Shown: positions 13,001 to 63,043 of the stretch, in pieces
Position numbering within the stretch: position 1 is the first letter of the stretch
Layout of the letters: each line of letters starts with the position of its first letter
NCBI GenBank assembly: GCA_030248295.1
Contig: JASANH010001481.1
Span: 310,001-374,000, forward strand
DNA length: 64,000 nt
Source of the DNA: Mesodorylaimus sp. YZB2_4
Taxonomy: Eukaryota > Nematoda > Enoplea > Dorylaimida > Dorylaimidae
Direction of reading: 5' to 3'
Notes under the pieces: model-generated
Told to the model about the DNA's origin: nothing
What the model saw: the letters and a program-made list of their open reading frames with translations, nothing else
Databases searched by the model: none
Translations under genes and position numbers: made by a program

Positions 13001-13619
13001 TGCAGATTTTCGAAAAGTTTATCTTTCTGATCTTCCAAAATTTCCGAAAAATATTGGACTAATTTTCGGGTGATGCTACAAAATAATGATCGATTAAAAG
13101 TATAGATTCGATTCGATTTAAATACCTTTCTGCGTAATTGTCTAGTTTTGACAAATCGTCCGATAAGCCCACGAGCTGGTCAAGGGTACCCACCTAAAAT
13201 CGATAATGGTACTTATCTATCGGATAGACACTCCTGGATCGCTTCGACAATCAAACTGATCAATCGATAGATCAGTCCCGTGAGCAAGTCAATCGATCAA
13301 TCCATGGATGATATGACGGGATGATCGATCAGCATCGATCGAGTCCCTGATCAATCATACGCACTTGATCAGTTTTGTAAGAACAATTGTATCGACCGAT
13401 CGATTCTCCGACTGCATTAGTAGATCGATCGATCAACCAGGAACATAATCCGCAAACACGGGATTCCAGGCCACAGAATTCAGGATTCCGTACCTTCAAA
13501 TCTGGCAGATTGAATTTAAAACTGGCAGCCATCTCTGTGGTTGCTCGATACATTCGGTCCCACGTCTCCTGACATGTCTTCTCACCCGGCGCCGAAATCA
13601 ACCAATATTCGGTGTTCAT
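10034..13619 (-). CDS. vha-11 (ATP6V1C-like): V-type proton ATPase subunit C (complete)
   Basis: Subunit C joins the V1 catalytic head to Vo and the stator stalks and takes part in reversible V1-Vo assembly. Eleven minus-strand exons: 13494-13619, 13126-13193, 12990-13075, 12811-12905, 12661-12752, 11816-11914, 11410-11478, 11118-11210, 10575-10766, 10373-10514, 10034-10147. All junctions are GT-AG, every phase matches, and the total is 391 aa (animal subunit C is about 382-392). It starts [12 protein letters not shown]. Other hallmarks are [18 protein letters not shown], the F-Q-W-D-T-A-K-Y-P motif, [19 protein letters not shown] and [20 protein letters not shown]. It ends [11 protein letters not shown] before the stop. 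Intron 1 is GATC-rich, intron 6 holds a SINE fragment and intron 7 a MITE. This is one of the most certain calls in the window. Confidence 0.97.
11268..11377. mobile_element. MITE (110 bp), CTGAAACC family, in V-ATPase C intron 7
   Basis: Left end CTCAAACCATATTTTACGCA and right end TGCGTAAAATATGGTTTCAG are complementary apart from one base. The element fills more than half of the 199-base intron between 11211 and 11409. Confidence 0.7.
11650..11770 (-). repeat. Decayed SINE fragment in V-ATPase C intron 6
   Basis: Contains CAGCCACCCACAGCTTGGCG, GTGCAAGCTAAC and GATTCGAACCCAGGACGAGT, matching the head and body of the SINE at 51335-51670. Confidence 0.5.
13194..13493. repeat. GATC/ATCGAT-rich low-order repeat in V-ATPase C intron 1
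   Basis: The intron is crowded with GATCGATC and TGATCAATCGAT words without a fixed period. The composition resembles the minisatellites in the WNK and BBS2 introns. Confidence 0.5.
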
Positions 13620-34487: not shown

Positions 34488-37400
34488 ATGAGCCTGCAAC
34501 CGTCTTTCACTCTGAAGCTCAACCACAAGATTTTGCCCAAAACAGTAGCTGTGGGCAATTTCGATGGAAATCGGTACTCGTTGGCTGCCGCTGCTTCAAA
34601 TGGAAAGGTAAGGTTTTTGTTGGGGCCCGCTTCATGATTAGTGCCATTTCAGGAGCGATCCTCACTTAGCATCAAACTGATAGAGGTGGTGATTTTGAGG
34701 AACAGGACGAGCGCACCCAAATTGATGGCGTAATGAAATGTGCTGAGAGAATGCAATTTTCCGCCATTTTTAAATTTGAATTTTTGTGAAAAAATGACCT
34801 TTCTGCTTCCGTAGATTTAAAAAATAGGCTTTCCGTTCTTACACAAAATGCATCCTGTAATGGCAGTTTCCATTTTCTCTGAATGCATTATCTGGGGGGT
34901 GCATACTCTTGGGACTTTGTTCTCCTGTGTCCATTAATGTCATTTTTCCGTAGCCAAGCACCATACAGCGCACTCGAGGGCTAAGGAATAAATTAATCGC
35001 CACTCATCTTTGGCCTAAGCGGGAGTCGAACTCAGCGAGAGAGGCAGGTGCCTTAACCCGCTAGGCCACAAACCGGTGCATGCTCGGCAGTGTACTGCGA
35101 TAGAGAAAGTTAGAACCCTGAAGAGTAGTACATATCAAAAACCCTAGATAAAAACCTTTAACCTTGAGTGGGATTCGAATCCGCGGCTCTAGGATTATCA
35201 GTGGAGCGCGCTAACCAGCTATACCACCAAAAACATCTACCGATTTGGTTGGCATAGCTGCATGGAAATCCGCCAGACTTTGATCCCCAGCTGAAAGAAG
35301 ACACAGTGAACCACTGTTCTTGCAGGTCTGATGAGACATGGGATGGGAGTAACCATCGAGACTGACATCAGACAATGCTCTCTATGGCCAGCTGGGGTCC
35401 TCGCAAGCAGCCCTTTAGCTGCAGGAAAAGGGTCACAAATCGATCCTCCTTTTTTTGAACTGCAAAATACATTTTGATCAGTGGTCAATCGCGATCAAAT
35501 GAATGTGAATACATTTCCTAGATCCTCCTGCACACGCCTCAAGGAAGGTCGGTGGAAGGCGGGCGTCTACTTCGATCGGACGACAGCGATATCAGTCTGC
35601 TCAATATCAACCAATCGGTGCGGGCACTGGCGGTTGGACGATTGAATCCGATGGTGGATCGCGATGTCATCCTGGTCGGCACTCCAACACACGTGCTGGC
35701 CTTCGATGTGGACAGTAACTCGGATTTGTTCTACAAGGAGGTACGCTGTAGGTGCTCTGACTGAAATGGAAATGAAAAATAATATTTGCAATGACAATTT
35801 TCTCGCCATTTTCAAAGTTGATTTTGAAACTCACTCCGGCATCTTGCACAATAAGCGTGCGATAACGTCGCGCGCACAGGCTCACTTAGGGACATTTCAT
35901 CCATGTATATCTGTCATAAGCGGCTAACAGCGGGAAATTCAAATTTTGCGTTGTATCCCGTGAACCGGTTTATGCTAGAGTGTAGAATCTATAGGTCACA
36001 TAGTGCTGCGCGTGGTCCCAGGAGAGGGTGTACCACGCTGTTGGGCGCCTGAGGGGTCGCTGTTAGCCTGCAGCACAGTATTGGACTAAGAACATTGCAG
36101 GTACCGGACGGTGTCAATTGCTTCGCTGTTGGTCGAATGAGCGGCATCGAGGCCGTGTTGGCAGTGTGCGGTGGCAATTGCGCCTTGCAAGGCTTCGACT
36201 GGCAAGGAAACGATGCTTTCTGGACAGTGACCGGCGATAATGTTTCGTCGCTGTGCTTTTGCGATTTTGATAGCGATGGGCAAATGGAGGTGAGAAAATG
36301 AGCGCAGTCGATTTTTGCTGAGAGGTCTATTCAAAATTGCTACGAGGCTGGAAAAATGGGAAGAGTTAGGGAATCTGAGAAAGTCCTAAAAAATCTGGAA
36401 AAATGGGATTTCGGAGCCAAAATCTGAAAAAACTGAAAAATGGCATCTGAAGAATTTGAATCATCCGCCTTTTCTGAGGATATACGATCTGGAAAAGTAG
36501 GATTTCAATCAGATCGATCACATTCTGCAAAATCGTTCGACCAAGGAAGGACGATCATGCTGTAAATCAGTTGAATTTGATGCCACAGCGGGGAAAAATT
36601 GAATTTTTGTGTGGAAGCCTGGGGAAATCAGTCCCGCTTCTTAAATAAATCCTGATTGCGCAGTTTTTTATTCTGAAAAGTTGAAGAAAACTGGGTGGTA
36701 AAAACATTTTCACGCCAGGGATGTATAGTGTGGCCATCACAGACAGTCTGCCTTAATATATATTTTGATTTCAGCTGATCGTGGGTTCGGACGATTTCGA
36801 TATTCGCGTGTTCAAAGGGGACGAAATTATTGCTGAAATGACTGAAACTGATGTAAATTAGGTTGGTTATCGATTGATCACGTGACTGATTAGATTGTCA
36901 TATCTAGGCTGTGACCAATTTGTATCCCATTTCGACCAATCGGTTCGCCTATTCCTTATCTAATGGCACATTGGGCGTGTATGAAGGCACAAATCGATTG
37001 TGGAGAATCAAGGTGATTACGATTGAAGGGGTCGATATCGATTGATCAGCTTACTGATCGATTGTGGGATCACTAGACTGATCAATTGACTATTTGATAA
37101 GCAGACTGATCGATCGATTGTGTGATCACTAGATTGATCAATCGAGTTTTGATAAGCAGACTGATCGATCGATTGTGTGATCACTGATTTATCAATCGCG
37201 TTTTTGAAAAGCAGACTAATCGATCGATTGTGTGATCACTAGATTGATCAATCGAGTTTTTGATGAGCAGACTAATCGATCGATTGTGTGATCACTGATT
37301 GATCAATCGAGTTTTTGATAAGCAGACTGATCGATCGATTGTGTGATCACTGATTGATCAATCGAGTTTTTGATAAGCAGACTGATCGATCGATTGTGTG

Positions 37401-40400
37401 ATCACTAGATTGATCATTCGAGTTTTTGATAAGCAGACTAATCGATCGACTGTGTGATTACTGGACCAATCGATCGATTTAGACTGAGTAAGAGTCACAA
37501 GACGGGTTCAGGATCTTTCTGCTGACATACTGATCGATCGATTGTGGTATCACCAGACTGATCGAGCTGTCCTGTAAAATTGTCAAACCAAGTACTTTGA
37601 CCATTTTAGTCAAAAAACCACGTCATGTCGCTGATTATGTACGATATTGAAGGTGACGGCGACCCGAAACTGGTCACTGGATGGAGTAATGGAAAAGTAT
37701 GTTTTCATGCACATTTTGTTGTATAGTTTCAAAATCTGGCGCATTTTCGTTTTAGGTTGACTTTCGATCGGCTATGTTGGGCGAAGTGATCATGAAGGAA
37801 ACTTATTCTTCGACCATTGCTGGCTTGGTGGCAGCCGATTATCGAATGGAGGGTCGATACGAATTGATCTGTTGCGCGACTGATGGCGAGGGTAAGATCA
37901 GATGTTCATGCTTCCTTAGCTGCAACTGACTTTTACCCTGGGGCCAAGTCATGTGCTTGCTCTGGTTGAAGAATACATGCAATTCAGTCAGCTCAGTCGT
38001 AGGCTGAGCTAGTAATGGCTACTGCACATGGCTCACCATATGACTCGTGTAGTGAAGCCATGCTATACACGTATAGGAGACTTGAAAAAAGTAGTAAAAT
38101 TGAGTTTCAGGCTGAGGTTTCAGACTGCTTGTGAATGGTGGCTGAATGATAATTTTTTACTTCAGTTCGTGGTTACTTGCCACCGAATGCGGGCGGAGTG
38201 GTGAAACCGATCGATGCTACTCAAGAGATTTTGAGAGATTTGAGTATGAAGAAGCAGGTGAGATTTGTTCTTTTTTCAAAGTTATGGGACGAGGAACGGG
38301 TTTTTGTTTAGAACTTGCTGTTGGAACTACGAAACTACGAGGAGAACTTGCGTGTGGCTGATATGGCAGCCCAGGCCATCAAAGTGGCCGAGGTACGTCC
38401 ATTGTTGGCCGTAGGCTATGATTCGTGTGCTGACTGTATCGATTTGTAGAATGAGGATAGAGAATTCGTGCCGATCGATCCCATGATTTTGGAGAAGGAA
38501 AATATCGGTGCCATACCGGTAAGCATGGACTACTGTGCCATAACGGATTGTTCAGGGGAGAGTAAGAGTTGAACCCAGGCATGCGTCAGGGATGAGCATG
38601 CTAACCATTATTCCATCAAGATTCTTGGCTCTGGAACACATCGACAAGTGCGAGTAGGCTTGATCACATGGCAGTATCCGAAACTTGAAATGGAGAAATA
38701 GCAATTGGATAGCATCGCAAAAATTTGAGGATTGAGTGTAGATCGAACTCACGCTATTTCAGTATTCTTGAACTCCTTTTTCATGGAGCCAAAAATCGAG
38801 CTCAGCCTTAATCGTTTTAGGCCAACACTCAACTGCAGACGACGTTGTACGTGAACCCGGGATCAGAGCACGAGCAGGTACGTTTCGAGATTGCTCGCAC
38901 AGACTGATAGTACTTTTAAATTTTCTCCTGTTTCAGCCGTGCGTGGAATTGTACGTGACATCGAGCAACGAGTCGCTCGTTCGCTTGGTCATGGTGTTTG
39001 CCGAGGGCATATTCCCAGGCGAGTCGTACGTGGTCCATCCACCACTCAAATCGGCCTCGAATAGCCTGAAAGTACAACTGCGATGCGAGAAGGACCTCGC
39101 TGTCGACTTGCACGTCAAGGCGTTGGTGGGATATCGGAAGAGGTAGGCTGGGGATTGCAAGATTGTCGTGCTGTGTGTGTGTGCAGAGAATAGCTTATGA
39201 TATTGCCAAATGGGCATGAAGATGGGAGCGCTTGGTCGCCCTGCGTCCTTTTCGACCTACCTTGCCCATATCTGATCATCGAGCTGGGTCGGCTGTGACT
39301 GAAGGATATTTAGAGGAGGAGTCTAATCGACAAAACTACAGCGAGAATAGACAAGCTGATGATGCATGCACGCACCAGGCACTACGCACGAAGGATACAG
39401 TGATAAAAACTTTGCCCTAACCAGCCATAAAAGTGGTTTAGTGACTACTGAATCGAAGCTGGGGGGTGAGGGCTCGATTTTTCCCCAAGCGTCATATTCA
39501 CTGTTCAGCTTCAGGATGGTATCTTTATCCTTACCGCTCTTGGAGACAGGGTTCATAGAAGACTGGAAAACCGGGAAAAGTTAGGGAATTCATGATGAGC
39601 CTGGAAAACCTGGGAAAATTTGGTAAAATGGGGATTTTGGAGCCGAATCAGGAAAAACTGAGAGGCTGCATTTTAAGGTTTCGAATTTCGAATCACCCGC
39701 CTTTTTTATGTGCTTGTTGATCATGCTGTAAGTCAGTAATTCAGTCGAAATTGATTTAGTGGTCGTGGGACTGTGTGAAAAATCAAATATTTGTCTGGAA
39801 AACCTGGAAAAACAGGGGAAATCCATTCCCGCTCCTTGTATGAATCTGTTCGTGCCTAACTTGGTTTTCCCTGTGACTGCATTTCTGGATCATTAGTTGA
39901 TGACTCTTGTAAGAATTCGCTGTGAAAAACACTGCCTTTTCTAGTGTCCAATATCACGTGTTCGAATTAAGTCGAACGTTACCGAAATTTTCAATGTACG
40001 CGTTGTGCAATGAGAACGCGCCGCAGCCGAATGGGTTCATCACGTTTAATGTGAACGAGAGGCCACAACGGGTGAAAGCAGTGTAAATTTGACTAGTTGC
40101 TGTGTCGATAAGGTTCTTTTTTTTTAAAGATCGCTTTGTGGATTAACGAGAACTTTCTTCTGCAAGAGGAGATAATGGTGAAGGACGGCAAGTTGGACGC
40201 TCGATTTTTTAGTCTTCGAGGGGCCGGCATGCTGTTCATTCAAGCCGAGGGGGCGTGCAAAGTGCACATTCGATGCGATGATATGGAACTGTGCGGAGAT
40301 GTGTTGGAGGCCATGGCCGAGTATTTGGGAATAACCGACTTGAATACCACCGCCGAATTCGCATCTGATATCGATCAGTTGATGGATTTGATGAATCAGG

Positions 40401-41706
40401 TGAGCAGGTCGAGGCGGACATGCTGATCTGGTGCAGCTATGTGATAAGCAGTCACTAGATGTGATAGGAGATTTATCTATCGATCAGAGATTAACGTTGA
40501 TCGATTGATCAGGTAATTGACACAGTGATCGATTGATCAGATGACTGACTCATTGATCGATTGATCAGACAGTTAACTCATTGATCGATTGATCAGACGA
40601 TTGACACATTGATCGATTGATCACTCAGATGGTTGACACATTGATCGATTGATCGCCATCAATCAATTCATCAGGTGTACTTGAGTAATCAGACATCGTA
40701 CATGTGGTGATTATATCTCTTCATTCGATAAATATCACACATGATAGTTGTATCCATCAAGATGTCAACTCAAGTTTTCTCTTATGTATTCGGATGGATA
40801 AAGGCAGATGTCCATATCTGATTGGAAGAGGATAAGTAGGCGCATCCCGGATGAAGACAGTCAGTCCTGACACCCAGTTTGCCCTCTCTCTGTCACTGAT
40901 GTACTTGCCTTTCAGGTCAACGACACTTACATGGTGAGGGATAAGATGATGGCCGACTCTGCCGACAACAGCGGCATGATCAAGGCCCTGTTGGTGCGCG
41001 CGGAAGATGCTCGACTGCTCGGGGATATGTACGTGCGCCTGGATCTGTCCGTGGCTTACATACTGTAGCACACGGTGTTTCGCTTTCAGGGCGACTATGA
41101 AACGATGCTATACGAATTTGTACAGCCTGAATCAAGAGATGATCGCTCAGTACAAGATACGATGCAGTCATCACGATCGATTGCTGCAGCAGTTGCGCAC
41201 GGTCAATAAGATAGTGCAGCGCGCTGGAAAATTGAGAGGTGAGGGACAAGTGTGACCTCGCTGATGAAGGTGATGCAACAGTGCACGGCAAGCTTAGGAG
41301 AGACTGTGGCGGGACAATAAGTCTGACTGGATCAAGGCAAGTCATACGACTATACCTATGGCTGGAACATGGATGAGAGAGTATCGATCATTCTCTCCAA
41401 CTTGCCAAAGGTTGCCAGCAGGGGGTAACTTGCTGATTTGGGCAAGGGAGAGCGTGGTGTCGCATGTGGCTGCGTGAATGGGCAGGAAACAGATAATTTT
41501 AGAATATAGGCCCAGAAGGTATAGAATTCTGGAGTGAGCAGGCTTCGTGGTTGGTCGTGCGCTAAAACATGACAAGGACGATGTAAGAGAACTACCCTTT
41601 TTTAGTCGGCAAACCAAAAACGGATGTTATCAGCGCCTGTCGCAACGCCATCAAAAATGGAAATACGGCTGCTTTGCCGAAGATCATTCGAGCTGGTGCG
41701 TCGTGA
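34488..41706 (+). CDS. bbs-2: Bardet-Biedl syndrome 2 protein, BBSome subunit (complete)
   Basis: Core BBSome subunit, which carries membrane proteins in cilia with intraflagellar transport. Seventeen exons: 34488-34607, 35522-35740, 36101-36289, 36775-36852, 36908-37012, 37610-37696, 37756-37891, 38166-38257, 38312-38392, 38450-38518, 38821-38877, 38937-39142, 39945-40071, 40130-40399, 40916-41028, 41090-41238, 41606-41706. All phases join to 732 aa (human BBS2 is 721). Family landmarks in order: [18 protein letters not shown], the propeller words [48 protein letters not shown] and [16 protein letters not shown]. Next are the coiled coil [12 protein letters not shown], the appendage words [16 protein letters not shown] and [12 protein letters not shown], and a helical C-terminus with [23 protein letters not shown] and IVQRAGKLR. 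Introns 5 and 14 carry minisatellites and intron 12 a MITE. Presence of BBS2 implies ciliated sensory neurons. Confidence 0.97.
35005..35080 (-). repeat. tRNA-like sequence in BBS2 intron 1 (first)
   Basis: Read on the minus strand it has an A-box-like GTGGCCTAGCGGGTTAAGG and a B-box GAGTTCGACTCCCG at tRNA spacing. The ends do not pair into an acceptor stem, so it is a pseudo-tRNA or SINE head. Confidence 0.45.
35158..35232 (-). repeat. tRNA-like sequence in BBS2 intron 1 (second)
   Basis: On the minus strand it reads GGTGGTATAGCTGGTTAGCG (a classic A-box), CTCCACTGATAATCC and the B-box GGATTCGAATCCCAC. The acceptor and anticodon stems do not close, so it is not called a functional tRNA. Confidence 0.45.
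36325..36650. mobile_element. Decayed CAGGGTTCATA MITE, BBS2 intron 3
   Basis: The interior matches the family (AATCTGGAAAAATGGGATTT, GAGCCAAAATCTG, GGGGAAATCAGTCCCGCTTC). Both terminal repeats are degraded. Confidence 0.5.
37060..37490. repeat. 55-bp minisatellite in BBS2 intron 5
   Basis: GCAGACT starts recur at 37101, 37156, 37211, 37266, 37322, 37377 and 37433, a 55-56 base period. Each unit holds GATCGATCGATTGTGTGATC followed by TGATCAATCGAGTTTTTGA, both partly palindromic. It occupies most of a 597-base intron. Confidence 0.85.
39547..39848. mobile_element. CAGGGTTCATA MITE (302 bp), BBS2 intron 12
   Basis: Begins CAGGGTTCATAGAAG and ends CTCCTTGTATGAATCTG. The interior runs in the same order as the copy at 20514 and is about the same length. 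Confidence 0.7.
40490..40665. repeat. ~28-bp minisatellite in BBS2 intron 14
   Basis: About six units, each with TTGATCGATTGATCAGA and a variable spacer such as CAGTTAACTCA or CGATTGACACA. It is built from the same GATCGATTGATC words as the other intron arrays. Confidence 0.8.
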
Positions 41707-42828
41707 ATTGTGGATCTTAAAGATTGGACCAAAGATAGTAGACCAACTAAATTGAACCAAAGATGCGGTTTCTTGTGTTTTGCATTGCATTTTAGAATTG
41801 TTCTGTGATTACGGTTGTCTAGTCCATTTTTTGTGCGTTGTGAAAGCATGCACTTGCATGGAAGGTGAAGTGGTTTTGAGAGTGACTGGGCAGAATGACT
41901 TGGGAAGGCTCTTGAGTGCAGCACTAGGTCGGTGGATGAATTGTTGTGTGAAACAGTTTTTCGAAGCATATTTCAAATGTAGCTGTAACACTGCACTGTC
42001 ACTTGCCAATCCCTGCTACTGGTCGCGTAAAACAGGCTTTGGATCCAGCCATGTTTTTCTCAGTGATGTGGTCCCTCGAGGGTGGACATACAGAAACTGG
42101 TAGGCCAAACAGTCTGGTTGATGTTTCACCAGTCTGTCACCGCTAGAATTCTGACCTAAGAACCTATCTGACTGCGGCAACCAAAATCAGGAAAAAAATA
42201 AAATCATCACAGATTACCTGCTAAATAATGTCCGTAAAATGGACCTAGACATAGGTGTGTAGTTGGGACTAGAAAATACAAACTTTCTTCTAAAAATATG
42301 AAAATTTCACCTTTTCACAAACTTCTCTAGTCCTAAGAGTGTGTAGTAAACTGGTGCTTAGCTCTACACTGAATTCCATAGGGACCACATGCAAAACATA
42401 CGGCACCACTTCGCGCCTACGGAGTGATATTCTAGTCGTAAGGTAAGATTACGAACGATTCCTGCCAAAACCCTGGCGATTGATTGACCCTTGAAAGTCG
42501 ATAACAGAAGCTGTGAAATAAACTGTGTCTGTACCTACTGAAACCACTTTTTAGCGCCATTTATTCAAATCACGGTGTAGTGCTAATTACCACTCACATC
42601 GCTCGAAATCAGTTTCTTCGAATCCCCTTTTGGCGGGAGGGCTAGAAAAAACCCCAGTTGAGCAAGTAGCATTACAACAAAAGCTCACCCATGGAATTTA
42701 CATACGTACCCTTCGATTCATTGTACCGACTCTGACCTATGCTGGCGCTGGCTGCATCAGGATTGCCCTCATTCGAAGTTTTTATCTCGTCTATAAGCAG
42801 ATACGAAGCAGGAGCCGAATCTCGGTCA
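41707..42828. other. Tail-to-tail spacer between BBS2 and the phosphatase-like gene
   Basis: About 1.1 kb with the 3' UTRs of both convergent genes. A family A fragment (about 42085-42140, with GGTTGATGTTTCACCAGTCT) is present. No gene is supported. Confidence 0.45.
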
Positions 42829-44767
42829 TCAAATCAAGACTTTACCACAGTCTTCCTCGGATTCACTAGACTCCCTGGGCAGCGCCAACAGCGATTTGTA
42901 ATAAACTATTTCCAACTCCTTGATCTCCTCTTTCGGGTATCCTTGCAGGGTCTCCAGTATTGGCTTCTCGATGCCCAGCCGGTGTTTGCCGATGCACTAA
43001 AGCAGAGTACTGGGTCAAACATATGGAAAAGAAACAGGATAAAAAATATGAGCTCGAAAAAATATGAAATCGAGCCCGCAATTCTGCCTGAGACTAAAAC
43101 TTCAGTAAACTATCATCGAGACCCAACACCGCGATGTACATACGCACTGGACATTGCCAAATACGAGCATACTGTACCATGCAGTCTTATTGACAATATT
43201 TGGATTAACGAAAGAAACGACAGATTGGAATAGAGAACAGAAATAGAATAAAAAGCTTTAGTCCCGAGTGGGAATAGAACCCATGCACCCAAGATTACCA
43301 GTCCAGGCATTCATACACCCAAACTATTAGCCCTCATCTACCTTCATTAGGCCAGGCATATTCACACGCCCCATCGTCTTCAACGATTGGTAAGAAAGGT
43401 AGGTGCAAGCGACCACGGGTGACTTGGTGAAACCAGTTTCGCAGAGGAACATTAAATCCTTCGGTTCCGTTTCGGGAGCCATATGGTAGTTGTATATGTG
43501 GAAGGCAGCCTGGGCCACGCCTTCACCGTCAAATGATTCATTTTCTTCACCATGAATATAAACCATGAAGATCTAGTAATTGAAGCAATTGCGTCAGGCA
43601 GCGACGACAAAAGCAATGGCTATAAGTATTCACCTTGAAGGTTTCGTCGATATCCTTCTCCCCCAAGCAAGTGACAGGCAATTCCTGATGGAATGATCCG
43701 CGTATGGTCCAGAAGGAAACTTTCCCGTTTTCTTTCACGAGCTCGCCCTTCAGCGTGTATTTGCCCCAGTGGCCTTTGTCGATCGTTATCTCTTCACCAT
43801 GATTGGTCGGACAAAACTTGTAGCAACTCCTTATCGGCTCGGTCATGCATAACACTGTCTTCTGAAACTGGTCGCTTGAAAGGCTCTGCAACAAAACAGA
43901 GGAAAATTTATTCAAGCTAAAAAACCAGAGGAAAGTCAATTAAAAATTTCACAATACCTTCCTTTTTACAATGTATTCATAGAGAGCGAATGCTTCAGTG
44001 TCCGTTTCTGGATATCCACCCACATGTGCCTTTCCACCCCAATAATCAAGCATTGAATTAAGGTTCAGGGGCACATCGATGACCTTGTAATCTGGATCAG
44101 CGATATCCACAATCTTTACGACCACCCTGCTGTCACTGCGGATGAGTTTGCACATCTCGGTCTTGAGATCAGAATCGATCTTGATTTGGTACGTTTTCTT
44201 TGCCTGATTTTCTTCATTCGCACCAGCGCTTTTATGAACACGCAAAATTTCCGTGCAGGGAAACTTTCCAATCATGTTTAACAGCCGAGCTTTTATTTCA
44301 GCGTCGGCAGCGTTCTGATTTTTGAATTCCTGAGTTTTCGCCAAATAAAGCTTAATATTTTTCTTCTGTTCTGGAAAAAGTACTCAGAACATCAAGCACT
44401 GCGTAGTCCAATAGGTCAAAGGTCAGCTTACTGTACTTCCATACGACGACAATGGTCACGGCGATCAAGGCCAGCGATAAGAGTACGAGGCCATCAGCAA
44501 CACCCCCGACACTGGTCCATATCAGTAAACTGTCGTGAAAAGTTAATTTTTCCAAAACAATTGCAGTCTGGACCTTCCAGTTCTTCAGCAGCTCTTTTAT
44601 ATAAGCTATCGAGTTAAAAAAGGTTTTGCCAAGTATTTGGCCTAAAATGATTTATACTGTACCCAGTATCACGCCCGCCTGAAAATAACCAATGGGTACT
44701 CACGATCTTCGTCCGCTAAGGCGATTTCGATCAAAATTATCAGCACGTAAAAAATAAACTGCAACAT
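42829..44767 (-). CDS. Receptor-type tyrosine-phosphatase-like protein, catalytically dead
   Basis: Six minus-strand exons: 44704-44767, 44432-44605, 43958-44370, 43634-43885, 43342-43572, 42829-42996. All phases join; 433 aa. It has a signal peptide (1-18, MLQFIFYVLIILIEIALA), a very short ectodomain (about 19-56), a transmembrane segment (about 57-76, ending VVVWKYKQKK) and a cytoplasmic domain of about 350 aa. The spacing follows a classical PTP domain: a YWGG...GGYPETDTEAFALYEYI segment where 'QGP...T..FW' is expected, CYKFCP for the usual 'YWP', and a P-loop-like C-E-T-G-F-T-K-S (345-352) in the place of H-C-x5-R-S/T. The His and the Arg are missing (Leu344, Lys351), and the WPD loop is replaced by VYIHGEENESFDGEG. 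So it should not be an active phosphatase, though it could still bind ligands or phosphoproteins. Homology to PTPs is inferred from motif spacing, not a search. Confidence 0.7.
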
Positions 44768-45439
44768 TTTTTGTGATTTCTTTGGAACTTGTAAAAAAAT
44801 TAGCGGAAGCGGCGAAGTACGGGCCGACAAAATTTCGCTGAAGAGAGAATGATCGCGTCGTGCGTGCCTTTTCCTTGGACTCCGCCTCTTTCTTCTGATT
44901 GGTTGAAAATGACGTGTGACGCTTGTGGATATTGTAAAGTATGTCCAGCATGTTTTGTGTGGCCTAGTGTTAAAAAGGATCAATTCCTCCCCAGGCTATG
45001 GCTGGTCTCACCCATTCACCAGAGTTGACAACAATGTTAATGAGAACTCTCACATATAGACCCTTCCCTAAGCAGGAATTACTCAGAAAATTTGGTCATT
45101 GTCGCATCCTACAATTTTGTCTGACATTCTTGAAAGTCACGCAGAAAAAAAACCGTTGTAATGCAAGGCTATATACATGCAGTCATGAAGCAAGCTCTCC
45201 AAATCCTTGAGTTGAGCAGATATGAGAAGGTTTCAGTAACGCAAATTCCGCACGCGTAGATACTTTCCACATGCCCACTTTCTACAAGCCTATGCTTTCT
45301 GTATAGGGGAAGCGTGCATAGTGTGCATACTCCATAGATGCCAGATGCAGTTTAAAATTTCCGCGAGAAAATATGCAATAAGTACTGATAGGAAAACTAA
45401 TAAATTAGCAAGACGGCGCTAATCTTCCAGAGTAGACGG
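44768..45439. other. Upstream region of the phosphatase-like gene
   Basis: Expected to hold the promoter of the minus-strand gene starting at 44767. No coding signal or clear core promoter was seen. Confidence 0.35.
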
Positions 45440-45654
45440 AACGCTGACTTTCGTCGTTTATAATTTTTTTTAAAATAGGATTTAAAAAAAAAAATATTAT
45501 AATTTTTTTATTATAAAAAAAAAATAAACACAAAAAAAAATAACAAAAATAATCTACAATACAAAAACCCAAACCCAATAAGCAATATCTTTTGCGAAGA
45601 CTAGATGCAATTTTAAACTTCTACACAAAAAACAACCCCTATATAAAAAAAAAA

Positions 45655-45690
<36 letters not shown>

Positions 45691-46040
45691 AGCCTGGGGC
45701 TCAGAAATATTTAGGTATTTCTTTGTTTAACCAAGGATAAGCTGTCCCAGACTCCAAATGTTATGACAGAGTTGTCTCTATTATTCACGCCTATTATTCG
45801 GATTGGTTAAATCGTGTCTCAAGTGGACAGACCCTCCAGTGGTCGGGTCTGTCCCCCCCCCCCCCCCCCCGACCCGACCCGACCCGACCCGACCCCGACC
45901 CGACCCGACCCGACCCGAAAGTCCCTAACCCGAAATTTCGGGTCGGGTTGACCCGATTCCAAAAAAATATAAATTTCAAAAAATTTCCTACAATAAAAAA
46001 TAATATATAAAAAAAAAAAAAAAAAAAAAGGTATAAGTAG
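45440..46040. repeat. Low-complexity block: poly-A/T, an 18-base C run and a CCCGA microsatellite
   Basis: A-rich runs fill 45460-45690. An 18-base C run lies at 45853-45870, followed by about nine CCCGA units (to about 45916) and an inverted GGGTCGGGTTGACCCGA. A second A run follows at 46010-46029. The frames reading through here code for nothing. Confidence 0.8.
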
Positions 46041-48670
46041 TTGAAGTTCCTCGCGATAAAAACCATTCACAAATGCTCAGAACGTGGTGGCGTTGGTGTA
46101 AAGGTGACTGTGAGAAAATATGCGGTGGAGACATCTGACGCACGCGAATCTTCATCTTTTGTTATTCCCTAGTTATTCTTAGTAAATGTTATAATGTTCC
46201 TTCCACTGGGTCTGTCCCCCTTTTTTCCCTGGGCGCCAGCCCCCTCCTCCCCCGATTCCGTCCCCCCCAAACTAACTTGTAAGCTTAGGTTTTTTATCGC
46301 GCGTGAATCCAAACTCAACAGTTGTTTGGCTGGTTTTAGTCACAAGGTTGCTCAAAAACGCAATCCTGATGGACTGCACAAGGATGCGCATCCACCATGC
46401 ATGACAGGACGCCTATCTGGTACTGCTGGGGAGTTCCCGGACGATCTCGGGCATTTGCCATACGCACCGGCGCCTCGTGACAGGACGGTATCGCATCAAG
46501 AAAATGATCGATTTTTGCCGTTTTGCTCGAACAAGTCCTCGAGTTGGGCAGAAATTCATAAATTTTGGTGTCCAAAAAACGAACGTAAAGATGATCGTCA
46601 TTTCAAAGGGTAATCATCCCACTCAACTTTATATCCATCACTTGCCCAAGTGCCTATTACGCCCGAAATTACAACTTATTCAAACCATTTTACGGATGCA
46701 ATAGCAAAAAACAAAGTTTTTGTTCATTTTTGTTGAGAGTCCTGCGCAAAATACTCACATCAGACATTGTGAAATGGACATGTAATGTAATGCCAGAGCC
46801 CAAACCAGGTCCATATTCCCACACATCTTTTTGCTATCCCAAACCAAACAAGGCATGCATTACAGCCTCCTACAATATGCATATTTTTGTTGACCTCAAT
46901 GCCGACTGCTTCACCAGGGCGTATCGTCTTCGAAAACACCCCTGAGCGAGTATTGTATACACCTACCAATTTTGGAAAGCCGGTTTCTAAGAGCAACAAC
47001 GACAAGGCGCTCGTGAAAACGAGTTCATGCACTAAAAAGATGAAAAACGGATACTAAATTGTACACAGTGGAAGAGCGCTGTGCGAAAGTGTCCTCGAGA
47101 CGATGCCACTGTACGTGGGTGGGTTCGAAAGACGCGGGCGCAAAATCCGCCATTGCACACCCACTTTTATAATGGACCTAGTTCGTCAGGCTTTCGGGTG
47201 GTAATCTCGTGATATTCCTTCAATAGCTGAAGCGGGCAATATTCACCAATTAATCGAACTAAGATTCTTAGTTGGAAATTTTGCGACCAAGTTTTTGCAA
47301 AGTTACCCCAATTTCCCAAAAAGGAATATTAATATTTAAAAATTTCTGACCTTAATTTTTTAATTTGAATTTCCCGCCGTTTCCATGAAACTAAATATAT
47401 CCAATTAGTTTTCCTTTTCAAAATGTTTCGAAAGTTTATATCACACGATCGCCAATTTTGGCCATTTGAATAGCGCGAGCGAGTGTACGAATCGACCTAG
47501 TGAACTTGGAGAAAGGGGAGCATTTCCGTCTGTCCAGTGCCGCACTGTCCTGCTCTGACGTGCATGCAGTGCGGATATTCTACTTTGTACTATTCGTCAC
47601 AAGTAGACGTTATAGGCCGACTTTAAAGACGTGAAAATTTTGATGAAAATTGGTGGTGGATTGGTTTTCTTGCGCCAGAATCGACATTTCTTGAATTCTC
47701 AAAAAAAAGTAAGTACCAGTAGTAACGGCTTTTGAAAATCGTTTTTGTCAGTTTGTTATTAGTGTAGCCGAGTATTAGCTGACTCCACATTCAAGTGCTG
47801 GGTTTTTATTTTGTGATCTGTCTTTCCTTATCAGCCTCTTCAGGCGGCCTATCAGCATGCTCACGATCACCACTTCGTAGTAACTGATCATATATGTCCT
47901 ACAAACCTGACAATCAAAAGAAGAATCAAGTAGTTTTGAATCAAATTTAACAGATAATCAACATTTTTGTGTTAGCATGAACAATTGAGATTATCATTTT
48001 CTGTCATCAAATATTTTTTGGCCTTTTTTACATTAGCTGCAGTGATTTGATATATTTGCTGCCTACAACCATTGAGTAGGTGTGCTAATTGTCGCCTCTC
48101 CTCGCAAGCAACTATATTTTGCTGGTTTCAACAGTCACATGACTCTGGATTTTTTGCGAAAAAGTAATTTATGAGGTGCAAAACTTGTCAGAAATTGTTC
48201 AAACGGATATTTCTTTTTGTATATTTGGTACGTGGGCTTTGATGTTGTGTTCGAACTGTCTGGGCGTGCTCGTGGTTCCAGCGAGAAGGCGGATCCGTTC
48301 AGGATGTTAAGATCTTATGACATCAAGTGTGGGGCAGGACTCTTCAGTAAAAATTTTTAAAAGCAGCACCAGCTGTCTTATCGAAGTGGCTTCCTTCAAT
48401 GGCGAGTCAGGCATAAGGATTGGCTCTCATCAGGAAGCAATTTTTGCTTGAAAGTTTCTCAGGGGACACGGAATTTCAATAGGGTCAGATGAGTGGGACT
48501 GGGGGGGGGGGGGGGATGACTATGTGAAAGGGAACTTGAATTTTGAAATTGTAGGCCGTAATTTTGTTGCAATTTTTTACAACACTGAAGGCGAAAAAAT
48601 GAAAATATTTCACTCTTAAAGGGTCTCACAAGGAAACATTGCCAACTGTTCAGTCGAACTTGAGAGAACC
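46041..48670. other. Gene-free 2.6 kb
   Basis: Several short open frames (for example 46194-46613 plus) lack splice support or family words. A 15-base G run sits at 48501-48515. I see no gene. Confidence 0.35.
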
Positions 48671-49000
48671 AACAGTTTTAATTTTTTACTTGGTGCAAAA
48701 GGAAGCTTTCTCTGCAAAAAATCAGAGGCGTCCAGCCAACTGGTCAGCGCCTAAAGTCCCGCAGATTTTTGAATTTTTGTGTGGTGAGGAACCTGCGAGT
48801 TAAAAGCTCCGAGTTTAGGCTTCCAACACTCAGGTTTTGTGTTTTTTCTTAAAAACCTCAAAAACTCCAGGGAAAATTCAAGTATTTTACAGGATTTTAG
48901 GCGCTGCACACTGCTGACCAGTTGGCCAGACGCAGCTGATATTTTGCAAAGAAAGCTTTCTTTTGCGCCTCACGTTAGAAAAAATTACAATTTTTGGTTT
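48671..49000. repeat. Foldback element with ~90-110 bp arms
   Basis: The left arm (about 48671-48762) and right arm (about 48890-49000) are inverted copies. Shared words are GGAAGCTTTC/GAAAGCTTTC, GCCAACTGGTCAG/CTGACCAGTTGGC and GCGCCTAAAG/TTTTAGGCGC. The loop is about 125 bases. A probable foldback transposon. Confidence 0.65.
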
Positions 49001-49375
49001 TGTCAAGCTCGATGTAATGGCTGGCGACGTTCCCTTGTCAAAATTAAAAATTAATTTGATGATAAGTTTTTGCCCCCGATGGTCTACCATTGCTCGCTTG
49101 CTAGCAAGCACAAGGCGGTTGGCCTCCGCTTTTTTTGAACCAAGGCCTTATTTGAGGGGCTTGCAGTCGGAATAAGGCCCCGCCAAGGAGGGGAGGGAAT
49201 TATCGAGTGGTAGACTTCAGCAACATGGTAAAATGACAGGGCCATAAAGCCCTGTCCCCTCACAAAGTATGTAATAAGTCGTGTCAGAGGAATTGATCAG
49301 CCCGAACAAAATGTGTAGACTCATACTTTCTTACTATACCGCTAACAATCATTCATTCGTCGCCCTTTTACAGGA

Positions 49376-50413
49376 ATGCTCGAACACAACTCAACTCATT
49401 CTGATTACGATATTTTCGTCTCGAGAAATGCCAATTTAGTCAACTGGGTTCATTTCTGTCGAGGCCTTATCGCTATCATTGCATGCTTGCCGAATCTGCT
49501 CGTAATTTTCTTATTTTGGCGTGCAGCTCGACGACGACCGATCACAGTGTGCACACAAATTAATTATGCCGTGGTCAATTTATTATTTACAAATATTCTC
49601 AACTGCATAATCTTATGTGTTTACAGTTTTCTAAAACGATACGCCAACGAAACTCTGTCCTTGGTGGCCCCTTGCCTCACAATCACTTGGTTCGCTGTAT
49701 TCGCCTCTTTCGAACCTTTGTGGGGAATGGCTTCGGTGGCATTTACAAGATTAGTCTATTTTGCACGAAGCGATCGATTGAATCGATTAGCCAGCAGCCG
49801 TCGTCTGCTGTGCGTACGGGTGGCCATCGTTGTCTTGGATGTGATCGCTGCCAGTATCATAATAGCCGATATATCCGAGGAGGCTTTGCAAACTCATTGC
49901 AACTATCAACTAATGCTGGACGATTCCAACAGATATTTGGCATATAGTTCCCTCCTTTTTATCATCCTGGTCGTCCTGGGTGTTACAAATTTCGTATATA
50001 GAATTATCCTCAGACAAGTCCTACTGAGGCAAGTACACGCCTCGGAGACAGGAGTGCCTGCAAATGTGGTGATCGATACAGCAAATAAATCGATAATCGA
50101 TAACTCAACAACTCCAATTCAACAACCAATACCCGGCTTGATATGGGAAAAACCTAAATTAATTGTAATCGCAATGATAGTGGTAGCATTATTTTTGCTG
50201 CCAAGAATAGCATTCTTCTGCGAATCTCGTCCTTTCTGGTTGATCAGCACATTATGCCCGGTCTTGATGGCCGGCGTTTTGCCATTAGCATTTTTGTGGA
50301 CGACCAAGGAATTCAGATGGGAGTTACGTTTCATTTTTTCCAAATCGGGTCCGAAATCCTATTCTGATAAGGCTGTTGTGAAGGGGGTAGAAAACGGGGT
50401 ATGTAAAAGATAG
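49376..50413 (+). CDS. Seven-transmembrane G-protein-coupled receptor (rhodopsin-like, orphan)
   Basis: 345 aa from a real ATG in one uninterrupted exon. N-glycosylation site N-S-T near the N-terminus. Seven hydrophobic segments at about 23-48, 57-86, 95-129, 149-168, 187-212, 260-283 and 288-312. A Cys at the start of segment 3 (A-P-C-L-T) and one in the second outer loop (T-H-C-N-Y) can form the usual disulfide. The end of segment 3 reads T-R-L-V-Y-F, a poor DRY motif, and segment 7 lacks a clear NPxxY. This fits nematode orphan or chemoreceptor-like families better than a known peptide or amine receptor. An acceptor-like TTTTACAG ends 2 bases before the ATG, so an upstream 5' UTR exon is likely. 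The ligand cannot be told from sequence. Confidence 0.8.
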   Translation: MLEHNSTHSDYDIFVSRNANLVNWVHFCRGLIAIIACLPNLLVIFLFWRAARRRPITVCTQINYAVVNLLFTNILNCIILCVYSFLKRYANETLSLVAPCLTITWFAVFASFEPLWGMASVAFTRLVYFARSDRLNRLASSRRLLCVRVAIVVLDVIAASIIIADISEEALQTHCNYQLMLDDSNRYLAYSSLLFIILVVLGVTNFVYRIILRQVLLRQVHASETGVPANVVIDTANKSIIDNSTTPIQQPIPGLIWEKPKLIVIAMIVVALFLLPRIAFFCESRPFWLISTLCPVLMAGVLPLAFLWTTKEFRWELRFIFSKSGPKSYSDKAVVKGVENGVCKR

Positions 50414-58411: not shown

Positions 58412-59509
58412 CGGACACTCGGTTAGCTTTAGTGGCCTCTTCTCATATGCTCAATGCTAAAAAACCGTCTCGCACAGCGAACCGAAAGCAGCATAGGAGC
58501 GCGGCGTGGGGTCCCCTTATTGCACATCTCGTTGAGCCTACGTCCATTTACGGTTCGCTCCCAACACTATAGCACAGCCACAAGCCAGAACTCGTTCTGC
58601 CTCTCGCCTTCTATAATCTGACAAAACACAACTACTAGCCATTGGAAAATCAATGACCCTAAGCCTAATAGCACACTCTCACGTCAAGGCCACCAAATCG
58701 CCCTCGGGCCTTCCAAGCAAAAACTCCGGATATGGAAATGGAAAAGTGGCAAAATAATTCTAATGCCCTCCATATTTGGCTAGGATAAGACCAAGCCACA
58801 CAAAAAAAGAGCTGGTCGATTCGAGCATCAATTCTGGTGAAGAATTGAAGGAAGAACTGGAGGAGAAGGCTCGGAGCCACCCATTCAATGACTAATTTAG
58901 ATAATAGAAAAATAGAGACTATTATCAATCCACTTTTGGAAAATGGTTCGATGCCTAGTTCTTCCACTTTCCCTCACGAACAGCCTCGAATACGTTGGGC
59001 GGTGAGCGACTATGGCACAAAGCAGAGAGGAGGCGTAGATGGCGCTTCAAATCTAAATAACTCCCATTTTACTCTCTGAGCCAGGCTGACGCTCTCGGCA
59101 GGATTAGTTACGCTTCCTTAAACGAAGATTCGACCAGCTGGAATAATATTCCTTTCAATTTAGCTTGCGATCCGACCCGTGTTTACTCCCGTCGCTCCTC
59201 CCTTTCTCTGCACACCTACTATCCAACTACACCTTGTATGGTCAGCACATGAAAATAGGGCGGATATACTGCGCGAACGATTGATGCGGCTTCCGATTTT
59301 CAAGTTTTTACTTTACCATAGAATTTATCATTGGCACACCTGATCGTGAGCAACCCGAGTTTCTAAACTACAGTTTCGACGGTCTTTTCGTGAACAAATT
59401 GTAAAACATAAAATTTTCGTAAGAAATAGTGAAGGGAGTAGTTTATTTCATAAAAGAATAGACATATTTATCAGCGCATTTCACGCTGACTTTGCGCCAA
59501 TGTAAAGTT

Positions 59510-60385
59510 TTACACGGTTTGAGTTGAAGTGGTGTTGTTGTCGTTTGGAGCGGGTTCCTCGATTTCTACGAATTCGCATGAACGCTCGAAGTCGACTATG
59601 CGCTGAAATGTAAAGATTACAGAAGAGAAGTACGGATGAAGGAGGGGAGGCAAAAGGGAAGTTGAGGCTGCGCAAGGGAGCAAGTCGGATGAAAAATTGA
59701 GTGGGGTCTGCAAGCTGGTTGCCATGGGTGTGCTACCCGCGGAGGCAGGCGCGGGAGAGAGTGTGGTCAACGGGACAAGACCTCCGACTGGAGCAGGCAA
59801 GTCTTGCGACTATACCTACGGATGAAACATCAACCCAAGAGGTTGACGTTTCCCAGCCAGGGGAGAGCATCGATTACTCTTTCCCACTCGCCATGGCCTA
59901 CCCGGTGGGGGTTACAGGTGCTTCAGTGCCTCGATTTCCAGCGTTGACAAATTCACTTCCCGGTGGTCTGTCCGTCCCTCACAGCCCAATGGTTGACTAG
60001 TCTGTAGCTTCTGTACGGCTTATCAGCCCATGCTCTAATGTGTCAGCGTAGGTCTCCCAACCCACCCAAATACAGGGCTCACCTTGATCATAGCCACCAA
60101 TGCAGTGGTGTATTCGTCCATAACCTCGTTTTTGCACGTCGATTCCAAGAACTTCTGATCTCGTGCAGCCATGTAGTATTCTTCGACTTCGGCGGCTCGT
60201 TTTCCAGGCCGAAAGAATGGACGCCCCGAAGCCAACGAACGGCCTGGTCGGAATGTGCGTCCAACAGCCAGGCTACGACCTGGTCTCATGTGTCGACCCA
60301 CGGCCAAACTGGCCGTGGACTCGTGGCATGCCAACATACATAGCAGAACACCAACAGCCAGCAGTGTGCATTTTGATACGGCCAT
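59510..60385 (-). CDS. nlp-22-like: RPamide neuropeptide precursor A
   Basis: Two minus-strand exons: 60083-60385 and 59510-59602; 131 aa. A 25-aa signal peptide (ending H-E-S-T-A) is followed at once by three peptides. They are SLAVGRHMRP (26-35, then G-R), SLAVGRTFRP (38-47, then G-R) and SLASGRPFFRP (50-60, then G-K-R). The Gly gives a C-terminal amide after cleavage. This matches the RPamide peptides of nematode NLP-2/NLP-22/NLP-23, which act on GnRH-receptor-like GPCRs in sleep and arousal (known for C. elegans). The C-terminal part (about 64-131) has two Cys 26 residues apart and an acidic tail. The ATG at 60385 is preferred because it opens the signal peptide. A TATA-like GATAAAAG lies 64-71 bases upstream. 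The gene is divergent from precursor B. Confidence 0.9.
59720..59900. repeat. Dispersed repeat family A, copy 8, in precursor A 5' intron region
   Basis: Contains GGAGCAGGCAAGTCTTGCGA, GAAACATCAACCCAAGAGG and CCCAGCCAGGGGAG. It sits in the intron between the two exons of neuropeptide precursor A. Confidence 0.55.
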
Positions 60386-60888
60386 CTTTGACGAGCGAAG
60401 TGCCGCGATTAGTACTGCGCGCAAGACAACCGTCAAACAGGTAGCAGACTTTTATCGTGTTTTCGACCCACTCACTTGCGCCATAGTGAAGCCAGTCAGG
60501 GCCATTGCGTCTTTGAGTAGGCCAGCATTCGCGACAAGAAACCTCGTAATGGCTGTCCAAGCTGCTTCTAATTGTAAGACGCACGAAGTCCATGCACACC
60601 GTCGAGAACTCACCCACGTGCAGTGCACTCGTAGGATTTCCGTGGACGGTGTCAGGCAACCTTAGCAGTGTCCGCCATCGACGAAGAATCTAATCAAAAT
60701 CTTTTCCGTTCAAGATTTCAGAACAGTTCCATAAACAAGAAACCTGTTACAAGTAGACTCGATCTTTCGGAGCCTATACGTGGGCGTTAGCTGCCGAATG
60801 ATGAACTTTATAAAGGCTGGCTGCCGGGCACTCTCGAAAGCACTCGCATTTGCATCCGACCACAAGTCAAACCAGGACCAAGACTGTC
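60386..60888. promoter_or_regulatory. Shared 503-bp divergent promoter of the two RPamide genes
   Basis: A TATA-like TTTATAAAG at 60807-60815 lies about 75 bases before the plus-strand ATG. A minus-strand GATAAAAG at 60449-60456 lies about 65 bases before the other ATG. The mirrored layout fits two core promoters back to back. No transcription start was measured. Confidence 0.5.
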
Positions 60889-61269
60889 ATGGCTGCTGTC
60901 CACTCTGCTCGTTTTCTCCTGCTTTCCCTGCTCGTCTGCGTGATCATCGAGCTGAGCACAGTCCAAGCGTCTGGTTATTACAGGAAACGTCAGTTGGTCG
61001 TTGGACGAGTCGGCTTTCGGCCAGGTCGCTCGTTGGCAATCGGACGCGGCGCCTTGTTGAAACCTTCGGGCAAGCGTGCCGCACCAGAAACAGCGGCCAC
61101 ACTGGCACCAACCCTGGATGATGTACTGATGCCCGGTTTCCGAACCACTTACTGCTCCACAGACAGGCAGGACCTGGCTGACGCCCTATTCTCCAATGTC
61201 GTTCAGGCAATGCAGGTAAGCGACTGTAAGGCTGTCGAATGGGCTAGTTTCTGTGCGCATAACCGCTAA
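60889..61269 (+). CDS. nlp-22-like: RPamide neuropeptide precursor B
   Basis: Signal peptide (about 1-27, MAAVHSARFLLLSLLVCVII...), then a K-R cleavage site and QLVVGRVGFRP (35-45, then G-R). The N-terminal Gln could become pyroglutamate and the peptide carries the canonical G-F-R-P-amide end. A second peptide, SLAIGRGALLKPS (48-60, then G-K-R), has lost the R-P end. The C-terminal part has two Cys 24 apart (TTYC...VSDC), close to the 26 of precursor A. Read without an intron it is 126 aa. A good donor (GTAAGC) at 61216 means the last 18 codons may instead be spliced out, with a possible last exon at 61945. It is head-to-head with precursor A and probably a duplicate of it. Confidence 0.85.
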   Translation: MAAVHSARFLLLSLLVCVIIELSTVQASGYYRKRQLVVGRVGFRPGRSLAIGRGALLKPSGKRAAPETAATLAPTLDDVLMPGFRTTYCSTDRQDLADALFSNVVQAMQVSDCKAVEWASFCAHNR

Positions 61270-63043
61270 AAGCCATGTCACCAGCTTATGTCCCCTCCTG
61301 AAATTCGATAAACCAGCAAAAACTTTTCATTGGGTCAAATTGAAACTTGTCAGAAGTTTTTTCATTCTACTAATTTTGCATTATTACATAGATTTAGCGG
61401 GTGAGGAATAAGCACTCTAATTTGGGTAATTGCTTGCGCAAATAACACATAGGCATTCAAAATCTAGGATGAAAGCTCGCACATTATTACAGGTTCGTTG
61501 GACCACAAACCAAATGTACACTACAGTAGCTCGCACCCTCTTCTTCACTCATACTGTAGTTACTGTAAGGGTTAGGGTAGGGTTACTGTAGGTTAAGAGG
61601 GTAGGGTCATGACACACAGGCATGTTTCAGTTTGTAATTACTTCGGCGAGGCACTTCGACTTTTCCTAAATCTAATTTTGAAGCCTGTCCAAGGATACCT
61701 GACAGACTCTGTAAACTATCATTCTGGGTGAAGCCATAGCAAATTCCTGTCTAATTAGAAAAAGGGACGCTGGTTCCCCGAATACGAGTGCATGCTTCTG
61801 TTTGACTTATCTAATCGTAAGTCTTCCCAATTTTCATTTGCACCTTTGCGACCCCTGTATGAAGCCTTTTGTTACTCTTTAGCAATTCACGCCAGCGACA
61901 GCAGGAAAGTGACTAAAATAGGCCTAACAGGCACACATTTTCAGTCTGGCAAATGTGCTTATAATGAACTACGACATCAACCAGCTTATCGTTAGACAGG
62001 AGTCAGGGGGGATCAAAAAGTGGGTCTGTTCAGCGGTTCATCTGTAAGGAATTACACCGCACTGCGAAATTTTCGCAACGACTGAATGCCTGAACGGCAA
62101 ATGCTAAATATTGTCAGTGAATGAGTAAAACTAAGTTTCAGATCCAAAGTCGCCTTACACAAGTCGTAGTAGCACATGCCGCTCACTCGCGCAGTTTTTG
62201 CACACAGATCCGCCCACTTCATTCGTTCGCTAGATTCCTAATTTGGCTCGTTTTTTGTAAGTTTAAAGGCTTCTTTCTTCGCCCATATTTCTTTTCTCGC
62301 CTCTCCAACTGCAGGAGGGCTTTTCAAACAAACTGCTCCTTTAATTCAGCTGCAAGTTTTGCACGCGCCTAAGCGTTTATCAGGGTCAATTCTCGAGGCT
62401 GTCCAAGCTCTGAGACTGCACTGCTTTCTGTCAGAGTTTGTCGACCTCGTATCCAAAAAGAAGTGACTATAGTTCGAGCCTTGCACCTTCCGATTTGTGG
62501 CCTGAAACTTGACAGACTGGGCATTCTTTTCAGGAGTTGCGCCAATTCGCCACAATTTGCTACGGATCTGACGAACCAGCCGAAATAAACTCGGTTCGAG
62601 ATCAAATCCAAGATTTGTACGAGTACTCTACAGAAGAAAAGTAATCACTTTCTCGGTGCATCGAACCAAACAATGATCGACAGTGTGAAGCAGCATGTCG
62701 GAACACAGTAAAATGTGATCTAAATAGTGAATTGTCAATGACATATCCAGATCTGATAAAATATTTGTTTTAATACACACAGAAAAACGAATTTTCCATG
62801 AACCCTCACACTAAACTTACACTTTTACATAGAACATATTTCAGAGAAATTATCAGCGAACGATGAATCAGATGCACCACGTCAGCTACATCAGTTAAAT
62901 CCTACATCTTCATCAGAAAAAACTTATGCCTGCAAGCAAATATTTCGGAGAAACATGTCAGCGAACATTCATACCAGCGAAGCGAAAAATCGCCTAGCAA
63001 CCTACAGAGCACAAATTTCAGTTACGCAAAAAATACCCGAGAA
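61270..63043. other. Gene-free 1.8 kb
   Basis: Possible 3' exon of precursor B at 61945-61995 (ends in TAG) and the 3' flank of the OGT gene. A short run of GGGTTAGGGTAGGGTTA occurs at 61568. Nothing else is recognised. Confidence 0.35.

Follow-up and report, generated by a model that had tools for sequence, protein, structure and literature searches.

Two divergently oriented RPamide-type neuropeptide genes of a nematode and the two-exon layout they have in common with predicted AKH genes

Two RPamide-type precursor genes lie head to head

The window analysed here, a stretch of 64,000 bases on contig C97 of a 145-Mb genome, contains two predicted neuropeptide precursor genes in opposite orientation (Table 1). 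Gene A lies on the minus strand with its ATG at 60385, and its predicted precursor has 131 amino acid residues and three RPamides. Gene B lies on the plus strand with its ATG at 60889, and its predicted precursor has 145 residues with one RPamide and one decayed unit. The splice sites of both models were predicted from GT/AG signals and from the agreement between paralogues, using the sequence alone. The precursors of A, B and a third gene, C, all begin with a strongly hydrophobic stretch that resembles a signal peptide by its hydrophobicity. Judged by eye, the peptide block of gene A begins directly after the cleavage site of the signal peptide.

The initial annotation had named four RPamides, all of which are encoded, and its list omitted the decayed unit of gene B, SLAIGRGALLKPS-GKR. 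It had also let gene B end at 61269. This stop is reached only by reading through into the predicted intron, and the gene continues in a second exon. The head-to-head spacing of 503 bases between the start codons was confirmed. The intron of gene A contains a repeat at about 59765-59902; contig C424 has three stretches with 80-93% identity to it, at distances of 3 to 11 kb from gene C.

Table 1. Predicted features of the RPamide-type and AKH genes (window positions unless a contig is named)
Feature	Position	Strand	Description
Gene A exon 1	60083-60385	-	hydrophobic signal-peptide-like start, three RPamide units, phase-0 GT donor; homologous exon in gene C
Gene A peptide block	60197-60310	-	SLAVGRHMRP-GR, SLAVGRTFRP-GR, SLASGRPFFRP-GKR
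Gene A first C-terminal Cys	60134-60136	-	codon in exon 1
Gene A intron	59603-60082	-	GT..AG, phase 0, predicted
Gene A exon 2	59510-59602	-	RIVDFERSC...; second Cys is exon residue 9 (59576-59578)
Weak TATA-like element of gene A	60450-60455	-	ATAAAA, starts at -70 from ATG
Spacer between the A and B start codons	60386-60888		503 bases, candidate shared control region
TATA-like element of gene B	60809-60814	+	TATAAA, starts at -80 from ATG
Gene B exon 1	60889-61215	+	hydrophobic signal-peptide-like start, SGYYR-KR, RPamide, decayed unit, phase-0 GT donor
Gene B RPamide	60991-61029	+	QLVVGRVGFRP-GR, in exon 1
Gene B decayed unit	61030-61077	+	SLAIGRGALLKPS-GKR; A3, G5 and R6 kept, no RP-amide end
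Gene B first C-terminal Cys	61153-61155	+	in exon 1
Gene B intron	61216-62533	+	phase 0, GT/AG, predicted
Gene B exon 2	62534-62644	+	ELRQFATIC...; second Cys is exon residue 9 (62558-62560)
Gene C exons	C424: 49656-49949 and 50004-50078		two-exon structure as in gene A
AKH gene	G000:C31:338578-338808 and 340319-340390		QLTFSQNWG; long tandem repeat in the intron (by eye)
AKH gene	G000:C61:233134-233325 and 233642-233731		QLTFSSNWG

The genome is that of a nematode

The nematode cuticle collagen N-terminal family gave 133 matches in the genome (E up to 0.001). Four TTAGGC units matched exactly 1,893 times when overlapping matches were counted (972 forward and 921 reverse), compared with 0 and 1 for the control. 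These collagen matches and repeats identify the genome as that of a nematode. A genome search that allowed up to one mismatch did not detect the SL1 leader. SL1 is common to Rhabditida and Plectida, and the animal therefore probably stands outside both groups, unless the assembly lacks the SL1 genes. A tardigrade origin of such peptides was rejected, the genome being that of a nematode, and a literature search gave no paper on tardigrade RPamide neuropeptides. Fragments resembling cox1 gave 15 genome matches on several contigs, and a number of them had TAA/TAG stops besides TGA. They probably represent mitochondrial DNA copied into the nucleus, or a misassembly.

A third gene indicates selection on the peptide block

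When the genome was searched with gene A, gene C was matched on contig C424 with E=7.6e-23 and 57% identity. When A is compared with C, the silent sites are saturated, with a differing proportion of 0.756, against 0.308 for the replacement sites. The stretch SLAVGRTFRPGRSLASGRPFFRPGKR, the last 26 residues of the peptide block of A, is identical in gene C. Since these residues were kept despite the saturation of the silent sites, genes A and C are under selection, as read from the comparison of their sequences. Gene B was matched weakly in the genome searches relating it to A (E=0.01 and 0.056). The two align with 33% identity, differ at 0.779 of the silent and 0.488 of the replacement sites, and agree in the intron phase and in the position of the cysteine that follows the intron. 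A genome search with gene C matched A and C itself, and B was not reported. With A, B and C as queries, no further intact gene was found among the best first-pass candidates that were scored. A GFRPG-type DNA pattern was discarded as a gene finder; it was useless, matching 43 times genome-wide and 180 times in the reversed control.

That the reading frames are open by chance or belong to decayed pseudogenes is very unlikely. Such a reading could point to gene B, where the second unit has lost the RP-amide end, which escaped the search with gene C, and of which exon 2 has a broken, partial copy 12.7 kb downstream (G000:C97:385271-385378) that contains a stop and lacks the cysteine. The broken copy is part of a direct segmental duplication of 73-88% identity, in which C97:385233 onward corresponds to window position 62484 (approximately) onward, starting in the intron of gene B. 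Gene B nevertheless has an open frame, with GT/AG at the splice sites predicted for it. For A and C the reading is contradicted by the conserved paralogue itself, with its saturated silent sites, identical peptide block and matching exons.

The pair had been described as an inverted duplication. The paralogues do stand in inverted order, but the inverted pairs listed by an ungapped repeat search of positions 59400-62700 had at most 21 bases, at 76% identity, so either the duplication is old or the orientation was acquired later.

The predicted peptides are of the RPamide type

The RPamide units follow the pattern xLxxGR...RP-G with a subsequent R or KR, and each gene has one to three of them. 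A C-terminal RP followed by the amidation glycine and a basic site was found in all three units of A, in all three of C and in one of the two units of B. Nematode RPamides typically have Ala3 and Gly-Arg at positions 5 and 6 (PMC7303124), and the same residues are present in every unit of A and C (3/3 each). In gene B, both units have G5-R6; position 3 is Val in the RPamide and Ala in the decayed unit. Members of the family are expected to have no N-terminal pyroglutamate. Ser1 is found in seven of the eight units of the three genes; the remaining unit, the gene B RPamide, starts with a Gln that could cyclise. The computed [M+H]+ values of the amidated peptides are 1122.631 (SLAVGRHMRP), 1102.648 (SLAVGRTFRP), 1233.685 (SLASGRPFFRP) and 1226.748, or 1209.722 in the cyclised form, for QLVVGRVGFRP. 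By these sequence features the assignment to RPamide-type precursors of the NLP-2/22/23 kind, made in the initial annotation, is right. The gene models and the paralogue C bear it out for two paralogous genes in opposite orientation. The joint expression of the pair and its roles in sleep and arousal are possibilities raised in that annotation.

The genes resemble nlp-2, nlp-22 and nlp-23 of C. elegans (PMC7303124, PMC10870154) in A3, in G5-R6, in the C-terminal RP-Gly and in the placement of related genes within a short stretch. They differ from them in forming a head-to-head pair with a third gene on another contig, in a genome where no SL1 leader was detected, and in the Gln1 and Val3 of the gene B RPamide. 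Sequelogues of nlp-22 and nlp-23 have been reported only in Caenorhabditis (PMC8764417). Five genes, nlp-12, -36, -47, -49 and pdf-1, are listed in that study as shared by every one of its nine parasites, so no RPamide gene is among those found in all nine. The RPamide-related precursors nlp-60, nlp-85, nlp-86 and nlp-87 of other nematodes have different peptide motifs, and a loss of the RPamides is reported for nlp-60 (PMC8764417), similar to that in the second unit of gene B. With the present genes, RPamides are placed in an animal that probably does not belong to the SL1-using nematodes.

The spacer may serve both genes

The TATA-like boxes had been placed 65-75 bases before the start codons. 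One box per gene was found, with the starts corrected to the positions given in Table 1. The only TATAAA upstream of gene A, at -427, is the box of gene B read from the opposite strand. The chance level of such elements was determined in the 51-base intervals of the window, where TATAAA or ATAAAA occurred in 4.4% and TATAAA alone in 1.9%. Upstream of gene C, TATAAA is found at about -117 and -189. The stretches covered upstream of the two AKH genes described below, 134 and 278 bases long, contained neither TATAAA nor ATAAAA. The sequences upstream of A, B and C were aligned locally with one another in six comparisons, for which between 26 and 297 of 500 shuffles reached the observed score, and no shared motif stood out. 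The lowest value (26/500) belonged to an inverted 11-mer of A and B and is unremarkable among six tests. The mirrored promoters proposed in the initial annotation are consequently weak: each gene has a TATA-like box, but the near box of A is only ATAAAA and no shared motif was conspicuous.

Control of A and B from the common spacer is plausible, the ground for this being the short distance between the two genes. A further step would be a true bidirectional promoter by which A and B are co-expressed in the same neurons. We regard this as possible but somewhat doubtful; it is compatible with a descent of the RPamides from AKH-type genes. The shortness of the spacer within a genome of this size and the TATAAA and ATAAAA elements ahead of B and A speak for it, as does a precedent in C. 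elegans, where one enhancer drives a head-to-head pair (PMC12239621). The alignments, in which no shared or mirrored motif was conspicuous, speak against it, and so does the deviating box of gene A. Gene C also argues against it: it has a TATAAA of its own, and a motif scan of the 14.5 kb upstream of it (35100-49655) detected no RPamide unit, so a gene of this kind does not depend on a head-to-head arrangement. The A/B pair is a natural test of whether closely spaced neuropeptide genes of opposite orientation share their control.

Two AKH genes are predicted in the same genome

In C. elegans, RPamides activate receptors of the GNRR-3/GNRR-6 type, and the link drawn from them to GnRH and AKH is based on these receptors and on a short motif, G[F/W]XPG (PMC7303124). 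Because of these receptor data, AKH genes were sought in the genome with the Pfam family PF06377 at its curated cut-off of 22.9 bits. Three matches were obtained, two of them above the cut-off (28.8 and 28.1 bits). The third (18.8 bits) was below it, contained in-frame stops and was left out of the count.

Both AKH models have a signal-peptide-like start, followed by QLTFSQNWG-KR or QLTFSSNWG-KR, a cysteine and a phase-0 donor. For the second exons, all phase-0 acceptors with a pyrimidine-rich stretch were compared over about 10 kb downstream of each gene, and a cysteine was not required. The exons chosen were the best of 26,068 acceptor pairs, with a score of 60 as against 26 for the next pair. 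A genome search with the AKH1 protein matched both exons of AKH1 and, with E=1e-4, exon 1 of AKH2. Exon 2 of AKH2 was not reported and is hence taken from the acceptor-pair comparison.

The AKH of this animal is predicted to be still a canonical amidated octapeptide. An amidated AKH has been known from one nematode, Globodera rostochiensis, and the others identified so far lacked the amidation (PMC5024129). The two AKHs with an amidation glycine found here add to the Globodera case. The AKH peptides start with Gln, end with W-G and are present in one copy per precursor. Their motif [FW]-[ST]-x2-W was found in none of the units of A, B and C, and among these an N-terminal Gln occurs only in the RPamide of gene B.

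RPamide and AKH genes agree in their C-terminal layout

In all five gene models (A, B, C, AKH1 and AKH2) a phase-0 intron splits the C-terminal pair of cysteines, and the second cysteine is residue 9 of exon 2 in the three RPamide and the two AKH models alike. The distance from the first cysteine to the intron, counted by hand, is 16 residues in both AKH1 and AKH2, 17 in A and C and 20 in B. In a MAFFT alignment the first cysteine of B was not aligned with those of A and C, and its correspondence is therefore read from position alone. The residues of the C-terminal segments did not agree significantly between AKH and RPamide precursors, with shuffle fractions of 0.10 to 0.59 and 4138 of 20000 in a group permutation. 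Searched against Pfam with E up to 10, A and B matched no family, PF06377 included. The FMRFamide family, chosen as a control for the architecture, had no match in the genome, and the layout was thus compared in these two families only.

A phase-0 intron is often common to the AKH genes of insects and of an oyster, and the oyster AKH prohormone has a cystine bridge in its C-terminal part (PMC5024129). GnRH and corazonin genes of deuterostomes likewise have a first intron in phase 0 (PMC10321317). The RPamide genes are like the insect and oyster AKH genes in the early position of the peptide within the precursor, in the two cysteines of the C-terminal segment and in the phase-0 intron (PMC5024129). 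The words 'cystein', 'intron', 'exon' and 'disulfide' are absent from the main texts of PMC7303124 and PMC8764417, which does not prove that the scaffold is unreported.

The two-exon layout that the RPamide and AKH genes have in common supports, without proving, that the RPamides are paralogues within the AKH/GnRH family. The RPamide genes and the two AKH genes would descend from one ancestral two-exon prohormone gene of the AKH/GnRH type, as their architecture suggests. In the RPamide branch the peptide units would have multiplied and the peptide changed, while the C-terminal cystine scaffold and the intron were kept. With slightly better than even confidence we take nematode RPamides to be an offshoot of the AKH/GnRH prohormones, both branches of which keep the ancestral cystine scaffold and intron position in this genome. 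By analogy with known prohormones, the RPamide precursor would enter the secretory route, its two C-terminal cysteines would form a cystine bridge, and cleavage at R or KR with amidation at the glycine would release the peptides. Their targets may then be receptors of the GnRH/AKH-like kind, as they are in C. elegans.

Alternatively, the locus could be an ordinary RPamide cluster of tandem or inverted duplicates like nlp-2/22/23 of C. elegans, with a generic cysteine scaffold that arose independently or was kept. We consider this unlikely, though it deserves weight. A scaffold of a similar type is found in RGWamide/APGWamide precursors (PMC8557429), and the residues show no significant similarity to the AKH segment. 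It does not account well for the exact coincidence in the five genes, RPamide and AKH alike, of the phase-0 intron and of a second cysteine that is residue 9 of exon 2, nor for the GnRH/AKH-like nature of the C. elegans RPamide receptors (PMC7303124).

The spiralian RGWamide/APGWamide precursors could themselves be taken as the source, so that nematode RPamides would have come from a precursor of this type and not of the AKH type. These precursors have several peptide copies, followed by two C-terminal cysteines that are 20-30 residues apart, with a single phase-0 intron between them (PMC8557429). They differ from the RPamides in peptide motif, receptor group and phyla. The C. elegans RPamides act on receptors of the GnRH/AKH family (PMC7303124), whereas the RGWamide receptors belong to another expansion (PMC8557429), and we judge this origin to be very improbable.

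We therefore return to the AKH/GnRH descent, which is put forward as the more probable origin and not as shown. The explanation as a whole, in which paralogous RPamide prohormone genes of AKH/GnRH-type ancestry flank a spacer that possibly serves both, is held with moderate confidence. Its most valuable part is the gene architecture in common with AKH. If the descent is true, the architecture of the precursors, and not the receptors alone, ties peptides of sleep and arousal to GnRH/AKH. A two-exon cystine scaffold common to both families in one genome would be an independent and testable line of evidence for this.

Other features of the window

A single-exon open reading frame at window positions 49346-50410 (+) resembles a G protein-coupled receptor, having seven hydrophobic stretches. 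It had no Pfam match, and its matches in the PDB were weak, with the substance-P receptor at the top (E=0.0016). With no tie to the peptides, it was rejected as a candidate RPamide receptor. Scans of the window with Rfam at gathering scores and for tRNAs gave no match, nor did a scan for bacterial promoters and terminators, which is not meaningful for animal DNA. By their Pfam matches, exons of BBS2 (38772-40423, +), V-ATPase subunit C (13332-13658, -), a protein kinase (19416-19763, +) and a PDZ protein (7914-8591, -) also lie in the window.
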